From assembly GCA_947462255.1 (NCBI GenBank), contig CANHOA010000002.1, forward strand, positions 1-64,000: a stretch of DNA of 64,000 nucleotides, in the 5' to 3' direction. Position 1 is the first letter of the stretch, and each line of letters opens with the position of its first letter. Positions 13,770-43,780 of this stretch are shown in pieces. A model generated the notes under the pieces. That model was not told where the DNA came from and did no database searches. It saw nothing but the letters and a program-made list of their open reading frames with translations. Position numbers and translations under genes: made by a program. This DNA comes from Flavobacteriales bacterium. GTDB taxonomy: Bacteria; Bacteroidota; Bacteroidia; Flavobacteriales_D; Crocinitomicaceae.

Positions 13770-13930
13770 AGCTCATCTCGACTACGCTCGATGTGCTTTA
13801 AGTGAATCGAGCGGAGTCGAGAGACACGGTGAAGTCGATGAGCTAAAAGTGAATCGAGCGGAGTCGAGAGACACGGTGAAGTCGATGAGCTCTAAGTGAA
13901 TCAAGAGACACGATGAACTCGAGAGTCACT
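13770..13930. repeat. REP-like GAATCGAGCGGAGTCGAGAGACACGGTGAAGTCGATGAGCT direct repeats with an inverted partial copy
   Basis: Two nearly identical ~46-bp units (13799-13844, 13845-13891), a degenerate third (13892-13930), and inverted AGCTCATCTCGACTACGCTCGATGTGC at 13770-13796. Confidence 0.85.
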
Positions 13931-15685: not shown

Positions 15686-15826
15686 TCTCGATTGGCAAAG
15701 AGAGGATAAAGAAAATTTCGAAGCGTAAGCGATACCGAAAAGCGCTTGTCGTTTGATAAGCTAGCTTATCACTCTTTTCGTGTATCGGTCGATGAGAAAT
15801 TTTCGCCGAACGTCTTCAATCGAGAA
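15686..15826. repeat. ~140-bp imperfect palindrome
   Basis: Arms TTCTCGATTG/CAATCGAGAA, GAAAATTTC/GAAATTTTC, CGATACCGAAAAG/CTTTTCGtGTATCG; apex GATAAGCTAGCTTATC (15755-15770). Confidence 0.75.
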
Positions 15827-15827
15827 T

Positions 15828-15900
15828 TGATTTTTTCGTTCTTTTGTATCAAGACAAAAGGACAAAGAAAATAGAGTCCGATTTTTTATCGGACAATATT
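15828..15900 (+). repeat. A/T-rich hairpin tail module T, copy 1
   Basis: GATTTTTTCGTTCTTTTGTATCAAGACAAAAGGACAAAGAAAATA.GTCCGATTTTT..TCGGACAATA; nearly identical to the reverse complement of ~43172-43240. Confidence 0.75.
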
Positions 15901-27506: not shown

Positions 27507-27643
27507 GCTTTTTCTATAAAAATTGGGGTTAAAAATGATTAGTTGAAATTACTTAAAAAATTCAATAGTCTTCGATAAAAATATAGCTTTTAAGATAGAG
27601 CAATAGCTTTAAATAAAAACAATAACTGTCCCATAATTATCAT

Positions 27644-27805
27644 TTGTCGCCTATTATGATGATAAAGGGTAGCGAATTGAAATTAGGGCTCCGTGAAGTA
27701 GCTCGTAGAGATCGCTGAAACGGTCTTATTTCAAGAGTAGAGTGAATTGAAGAATAATCAGCGACTTGATTTTTTGCTCCTTTTTCATCAAGGAAAAAGT
27801 AGAAG
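27644..27805 (+). repeat. palindromic element P + A/T hairpin tail, copy Z3
   Basis: TTGTCGCCTATTAT...CCGTGAAGTAGCTCGTAGAGATCGCTGAAACGGTCTTATTTCAAGAGT...GAAGAATAATCAGCGACTTGATTTTTT; homologous to the reverse complement of 43173-43362. Confidence 0.8.
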
Positions 27806-27942
27806 AAAAGAGACAGAAGATCACGTGAACATCAATCTTTATTAAACTCGAATCATTTTTACCAGACACTAATCTGAAAAATTCAAAAAAAGCATGGATA
27901 AGTAGCAACTTATCCATACTCATTTTAAAAGTTAGAAATCCC

Positions 27943-42924: not shown

Positions 42925-43042
42925 TTGAGTTTACACTTTTGTACCACAAATCAAAATCCTCATCAAATCATAACGTGAACAAGAATCTCAATCTAAACGA
43001 TTTTTGTACTTGGCTTTCTTTTTTCTTGACAAAAAAAGTCAC

Positions 43043-43158
43043 GACTCTGAATTTCTCTTTTTCCGCCGTAGCGGACGCAAATAATCAATAGATAGTGCTC
43101 ACTTCGAATGAATTCTTAATTTTTAATAGTAACATATTTTACTGGTACGAATACTCAC
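43043..43158 (-). repeat. dispersed intergenic module X, copy 2
   Basis: ACTCTGAATTTCTnTTTTTCCGnCGTAGCGGACGCAAATAATCAATAGnTAGTGCTCACTTCGAATGAATTnTTAAT shared with 43583-43698. Confidence 0.9.
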
Positions 43159-43172
43159 TATTTTTTCACTAT

Positions 43173-43362
43173 TGTCCGATAAAAATCGGACCTTATTTTC
43201 TTTGTCCTTTTGTCTTGATACAAAAGAACGAAAAAATCAAGTCGCTGATTATTCTTCAATACACTCCACTCTTGAAATAAGACCGTTTCAGCGATCTCTG
43301 CGAGCTGCATTACGGTACCATTATTTAAATTCGCTTTACTTTATCAGAATAATAGGCGACAA
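43173..43362 (-). repeat. palindromic element P + A/T hairpin tail, copy Z4C
   Basis: Reverse complement aligns with 27644-27770 over most of its length; its tail aligns with 15828-15900. Confidence 0.85.
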
Positions 43363-43386
43363 GAGAAAAAAAATGAACTTATTTTT

Positions 43387-43560
43387 TAATAATGAAAGCT
43401 TGCAAAAGAGAATGATTGTATTGAACTAAGACTTGGGTACCGTGAGGTAGTTCGGTAGAAATCACCGAAAGGGTCAAGTCTTAGAATTGGAGAGAATGAA
43501 CGCATGCCACTTTCGAGTTTTTTTGCTACTTTTTTTGCGGAAAAAAAAGTAGGGTAAGTA
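43387..43560 (+). repeat. palindromic element P, diverged copy Z4D, with hairpin CTACTTTTTTTGCGGAAAAAAAAGTAG
   Basis: CTAAGACTTG/CAAGTCTTAG (43426-43435/43475-43484) and TTCGGT/ACCGAA arms; shares GGTACCGTGAGGTAG...GTAGAAATC core with Z3/Z4C. Confidence 0.75.
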
Positions 43561-43582
43561 GCAGCGAAACTTAAAAAGTCAA

Positions 43583-43698
43583 TACTCTGAATTTCTGTTT
43601 TTCCGACGTAGCGGACGCAAATAATCAATAGTTAGTGCTCACTTCGAATGAATTATTAATCTTTAACATTAAAATATTTTACTCTTACGATTGCGAAC
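43583..43698 (-). repeat. dispersed intergenic module X, copy 3
   Basis: Direct repeat of 43043-43158. Confidence 0.9.
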
Positions 43699-43780
43699 AT
43701 TCAGAAAAATAAACACCCAATACTTAATAACTTTCTTTTTTCTTTATTCTAGATAAAATTCATTGACATACCTTTGGTAT

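Follow-up and report, generated by a model that had tools for sequence, protein, structure and literature searches.

A family of intergenic palindromic repeats in Crocinitomicaceae with a nested fold that appears to be kept while its stem letters change

The repeat block at 43 kb and the plan of the unit

The window, the whole 64,000-nucleotide stretch of DNA that was analyzed, contains at 43 kb an intergenic block of repeats between two syntenic genes (Table 1). The gap between these genes measures 839 bp in the window, as against ~60-75 bp for the same gene pair in seven relatives (L211, L292-L298); in a further relative, G076, it is ~920 bp. Judged from these gap sizes, the block is an insertion between the two genes. 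It holds a minus-strand A unit and a plus-strand B unit, which form a head-to-head heterodimer with their 5′ ends facing one another ~30 nt apart. A(-)/B(+) pairs recur at several places in the window's own genome and in its relatives, and the dimer at the orthologous site of G076 differs in the apical hairpin and the tail loop. On either side of the dimer lies a 118-nt direct repeat (90% identical; 43033-43150 and 43573-43690), related copies of which are found elsewhere in the genome. Two covariance models were used, R1 being the first model, of the core, and R2 the full-length model.

Table 1. Positions of the repeat block, the repeat units and the parts of the B unit in the window
Feature	Position	Strand	Basis and remarks
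Single A unit, the comparison copy of the sequence-only reading	27638..27802	+	R2 match 27638-27775, 130.9 bits
Intergenic repeat block between two syntenic genes	42925..43762	.	Gap sizes in relatives
A unit, partner of the B unit	43196..43368	-	R2 match 43231-43368, 135.9 bits; tail hairpin to ~43,200
B unit, whole element (outer helix to tail hairpin)	43386..43552	+	R2 match 43386-43524, 105.4 bits, E 4e-20; tail read from sequence
B unit, P0a 5′ arm GAAAG	43394..43398	+	Pairs with CTTTC 43510-43514; from sequence
B unit, P1 5′ arm CTAAGACTTG	43426..43435	+	Partner CAAGTCTTAG 43475-43484; from sequence
B unit, P2 5′ arm ACCGT	43439..43443	+	Faces AGGGT 43470-43474; from alignments
B unit, apical part, P2b GGT/ACC and P3 TTC/GAA	43446..43466	+	Alignment and pair counts
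B unit, tail hairpin CTACTTTTTTTGCGGAAAAAAAAGTAG	43526..43552	+	3′ end of unit; similarity of a 99%-identical G037 pair (L172) stops there

The unit is ~165 nt long and comprises 29 consensus pairs and a tail hairpin. Its layers follow in the order P0a, P0b, an internal loop, P1, a GGN bulge, P2, a GA/GAA loop, P2b, an AG/ATC loop, and P3. P0a reads GTCGC/GCGAC in A and C copies, GAAAG/CTTTC in B, and GGTGC/GCACC or GCGC/GCGC in others. The loop between P0b and P1, which sets AAGCGA opposite AGTGGA, is conserved, and P1 consists of 10 bp of variable letters. P2 is mostly ACCRT/AYGGT, and the 3-bp P2b is either AGC/GCT or GGT/ACC. P3 takes the forms CTC/GAG, TTC/GAA, CC/GG, TCCGTC/GACGGA, and longer ones, and 3′ of it come a T-rich linker and a small hairpin with T-rich and A-rich arms. 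The GGN, AAGCGA/AGTGGA, GA/GAA, and AG/ATC loops are conserved and unpaired across genera. The borders of the unit are sharp, one immediately 5′ of P0a and the other where the tail hairpin ends, as seen in two 99%-identical copies in G037 with unrelated flanks. Many cores contain the tetranucleotide GTAG, and many tails have it at their 3′ end; in other genera the tails end in AGTAA and the cores have GGAAG.

A sequence-only reading of the B copy had described perfect 10-bp outer arms, a shared core GGTACCGTGAGGTAGTTCGGTAGAAATCACCGAAAGGGTC between them (43436-43475), and CTACTTTTTTTGCGGAAAAAAAAGTAG following the palindrome, and all three are present in the sequence. Within the window, the core pattern of that reading is matched exactly once and, with three mismatches, again at 27,687. 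The 10-bp helix, P1, is real but forms only the middle layer of the nesting, the unit having in addition an outer helix and the tail hairpin. P2 of the B unit contains a G.G mismatch, where L116, L122, L123, and L124 instead have ACCGT/ACGGT. The apical arms TTCGGT (43451-43456) and ACCGAA (43464-43469) are complementary, as had been proposed, but they had been set against an AGC/GCT stem that is not their homologue. The AGC/GCT of A copies corresponds to P2b GGT/ACC of B, so the apical comparison was right in kind and in the wrong register. The central 65-nt hairpin of B has a z-score of -4.8 folded as DNA and -3.3 as RNA relative to 200 dinucleotide shuffles, none of which folds equally well as either molecule.

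Other repeats are associated with the units. In many B copies a second palindrome family (CATCTCGACTCCGCTCGATGCCC...ATCGAGCGGAGTCGAG) lies within the apical hairpin, with GGTACCGTG and CACTTATATAGAAATCACC on its two sides, giving nested palindrome-in-palindrome copies (L005, L007, L009, L011, L107, L108, and L117). A palindrome of this same family, TCGACTNCGCTCGAT, lies at 13778-13881 of the window together with two 47-nt tandem copies (94% identical). GC-rich palindromes either lengthen P3 or lie as interruptions within A copies. At 15824-15886 the A tail region (CTTTGTCCTTTTGTCTTGATACAAAAG) also occurs as a stand-alone copy (95% similar), where its loop ATCAAG is able to pair with an upstream CTTGAT, and many more such coreless A tails are found in the genome.

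Distribution, mobility, and gene context

The palindrome belongs to a previously undescribed family of intergenic repeats in aquatic Crocinitomicaceae. In the window's own genome, R1 located the family at 13 places, and DNA searches found A-type and B-type copies on several contigs; relatives of the same genus carry both types. The core was detected with R1 in 37 of 299 relatives. R2 detected the repeat in 59 of 399 sampled genomes of Flavobacteriales; these fall into nine genera, all within Crocinitomicaceae, the family of the window itself. The nearest named genomes are metagenome assemblies of Crocinitomicaceae and Flavobacteriales, and G076 (98% complete) has at least 11 copies. Rfam 15 yielded no credible match on the element at gathering or relaxed thresholds, only chance matches, and the phage and plasmid records searched contained no match to it. 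None of 12 pattern matches in viral contigs was confirmed by the full R2 model. One metagenome assembly labelled Chitinophaga pinensis (L213, CAMAZP010000008.1) has the synteny of the window and carries the element, and so looks like a mislabelled Crocinitomicaceae genome.

Insertion was recent at some sites. G083 and G045 lack the 27.6-kb A unit at the orthologous position, whose flanks are ~92-95% identical, and the near-identical G037 copies (99%) lie in unrelated flanks. The insert that holds the 27.6-kb copy is ~316 bp (27560-27890), larger than the unit, with AAAAATTCAA at both borders and inverted ends that are weakly similar to one another. The unit may here be hosted by a larger MITE that has a target duplication of 10 bp. 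No clean target duplication was seen for the 165-nt unit itself, whose terminal inverted repeat consists of the 5-bp outer helix only. By simple ORF calls, 1 of 102 copies overlaps a long ORF, and 52 of the 77 copies for which both neighboring genes were called sit 3′ of a same-strand gene, a count in which some copies are orthologous. Codirectional sites show no strand bias (24 versus 15).

No transposase or other mobilizing enzyme linked to the copies was found, and neither a recurrent transposase ORF nor a related autonomous insertion sequence was present near the copies examined. The proteins that do recur near copies were rejected as mobilizers, being orthologous housekeeping genes or translated repeats. 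The genome's single intact Y1 transposase (L061, G000:C2:95695-96039) was also rejected because it carries other repeats, its own short AAGCCTGAAGGGCTT and AACAACCCTGACAGGGGTT, in its flanks. The Y1 genes of relatives were set aside because no element copies lie there: 16 loci drawn from Y1 searches contained no A, B, or C match, and several intact Y1 genes carry other repeats in their flanks. The A-B block at L018 adjoins a truncated Y1 transposase ORF. In G076, no Y1 transposase match was found.

Pairing across copies and the origin of double changes

In an alignment of 32 diverse copies, 91.0% of the cells of the 29-pair nested fold are paired, and both sides have changed at 21 of the 29 pairs, including 8 of the 10 pairs of P1 (helix 3). 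Sliding the partners by 1-3 columns lowered pairing to at most 46% and the covariation score from 0.49 to at most 0.12, and 0 of 500 shuffles reached the observed score. Among 102 copies, in an alignment that was fitted to the covariance model and hence leans towards it, 92.4% of cells are paired, with changes on both sides at 28 of 29 pairs; the helix homologous to P0a is paired in 95% of cells. The sequence-only reading had named unpaired arms, varying independently of each other, as the observation that would contradict it. Such a pattern was not found over the 32 and 102 copies, and the proposal that structure is kept rather than sequence is supported by both sets of pair counts. The alignments thus support a folded shape that is kept while the stem letters change, which makes it probable that the element moves, or acts, as a folded single strand. 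Conservation of element relative to flank at orthologous sites is mixed, with 94-97% identity at several sites and flanks that are non-homologous at some.

Two measurements bear on which molecule folds. GT outnumbers CA at paired columns (61 versus 32), which favors the plus strand, and the mean RNA folding energy is -38.9 kcal/mol for the plus strand versus -34.4 kcal/mol for the minus strand; as alignment cells are not independent, these figures are supportive rather than decisive. GT pairs form in single-stranded DNA as well. The stability of the plus strand as RNA and the GT excess fit RNA equally well, and a transcribed RNA is a serious rival reading, if in our estimate an unlikely one. 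The plus strand would be transcribed from neighboring promoters, act as a small RNA or 3′ UTR element, and have spread by duplication or retro-mobility. Conserved unpaired letters within a complex fold, the preference of copies for positions 3′ of genes, and the identity held at several orthologous sites are all consistent with such an RNA. The unit begins at the outer helix, however, and therefore carries no conserved upstream promoter; the lack of an Rfam match and of strand bias at codirectional sites argues in the same direction, as do the patchy occurrence and the multiplicity of copies within genomes, which resemble a mobile repeat. A variant that we consider improbable is a novel class of structured, mobile RNA in Crocinitomicaceae, a 165-nt RNA with a riboswitch-like fold and conserved loops that would itself be the mobility unit, for example by being reverse-transcribed or by guiding its own insertion.

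The double changes arise in part by subfamily turnover, the core of B being common to many copies elsewhere. The B copy and the 27.6-kb copy belong to different subfamilies, and so their difference alone is not a string of compensatory mutations. Derivation of B in place from an A copy such as that at 27.6 kb was rejected because the B subfamily has many copies in relatives. In-place compensation is seen at the orthologous pair L327/L329, with five double changes, and at the orthologues L191/L200, where one P1 pair has gone from G-C to T-A. The orthologues L202 and L203 share the ATCAAG loop of the tail hairpin unchanged, with wholly different arms on both sides of it, which looks like whole-arm replacement; in L202 a GCGCCTAGGCGC palindrome also replaces the start of P1.

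Template switching at hairpins is a documented mechanism (PMC8794818) and may add to the double-change pattern, as in the tail-arm swap between L202 and L203. As an account in which one arm of a quasipalindrome is copied onto the other, so that compensation is mutational and the fold is not selected, it would also fit the GC-rich palindromes that extend P3 or interrupt A copies. Such copying should, however, make internal loops paired. The asymmetric GGN, AAGCGA/AGTGGA, GA/GAA, and AG/ATC loops instead keep their letters and their unpaired state from genus to genus, which makes this account very improbable.

Relation to known repeats and interpretation

Like REP and REPIN sequences and their RAYT systems (PMC3733652, PMC3116915, PMC2817692), the element is intergenic, multicopy, and hairpin-forming, often in inverted dimers and often downstream of genes, and other palindromes are nested with both. 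A REP is a palindrome of 20-40 bp, whereas the element has ~165 nt, a multi-layer fold, and conserved internal loops. GTAG/CGTC REPs end on one side in an unpaired tag, GTAG or CGTC, whereas a 3′ GTAG is present in only part of the copies here; their inverted dimers are shared by the element as the A(-)/B(+) pairs of several genomes. Their cognate RAYT gene is flanked by the same repeat, and no such gene was found for the element among the Y1 loci examined. Its size, non-universal GTAG, and lack of a cognate RAYT mean that the element lacks the defining features of a REP, though working like a REP/MITE palindrome. Least likely of all is that a RAYT transposase spreads the element as a classical GTAG REP/REPIN. 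The head-to-head dimers, the GTAG of many cores and tail ends, and the intergenic positions speak for this reading; against it are a unit about four times REP length, the AGTAA tails and GGAAG cores of other genera, inspected Y1 genes that are never flanked by the element (several have other repeats), and a G076 genome without Y1.

In Bacteroidetes, subclass 2.6 TnpA_Y1 genes are flanked by atypical secondary structures (PMC6006769). Compared by description only, these structures resemble the element in phylum, in their non-canonical hairpins, and in having copies elsewhere in the genome, but they adjoin Y1 genes, where no copy of the element was found. ERIC/RU-1 repeats are long imperfect palindromes. 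In Enterobacteriaceae they measure 127 bp and have been described as small mobile intergenic sequences likened to MITEs (PMC2759123). Their length is similar to that of the element, a likeness by description between unrelated hosts; for the element, covariation and conserved internal loops are shown. MITEs (PMC10969869) are, like the element, short, non-coding, and mobile without an enzyme of their own. The element is also dispersed and recently inserted (empty sites; no recurrent transposase ORF nearby), but its outer arms are only ~5 bp, no clean target duplication was seen, and no parent insertion sequence was found near the copies examined.

This family has defined borders, multiple copies in a genome, recent insertions, and changes that preserve pairing, and is probably a new non-autonomous mobile palindromic repeat of the REP/MITE type, ~165 nt long, selected as a folded strand and so far seen only in Crocinitomicaceae. 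One strand would fold into the nested hairpin P0a-P3 plus the small A/T hairpin tail. A trans-acting mobilizer would recognize this folded single strand, most likely as single-stranded DNA exposed in replication or excision. An HUH/Y1 enzyme is the natural model because the hairpins of REP and IS200/IS605 elements work in this way (PMC6006769). Helix letters would drift with compensation, and the unpaired loop letters that are contacted would stay fixed. In this reading the 43.4-kb copy came in between two genes as the B member of a head-to-head A-B dimer. The lack of a linked enzyme, of Y1 in G076, and of a clean target duplication are points against a mobile DNA.

The family represents a deep natural covariation experiment, spanning nine genera and more than 100 copies, in which a multi-layer fold with fixed unpaired letters persists. 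Small mobile palindromes are usually described by their sequence, whereas here the fold is what persists. The complexity of the fold is unusual for a REP-like repeat, although the general kind is already known. The family makes it testable whether single-stranded DNA or RNA is the selected molecule of a non-autonomous element, and what share selection, as opposed to template switching, has in the compensatory change of hairpins.
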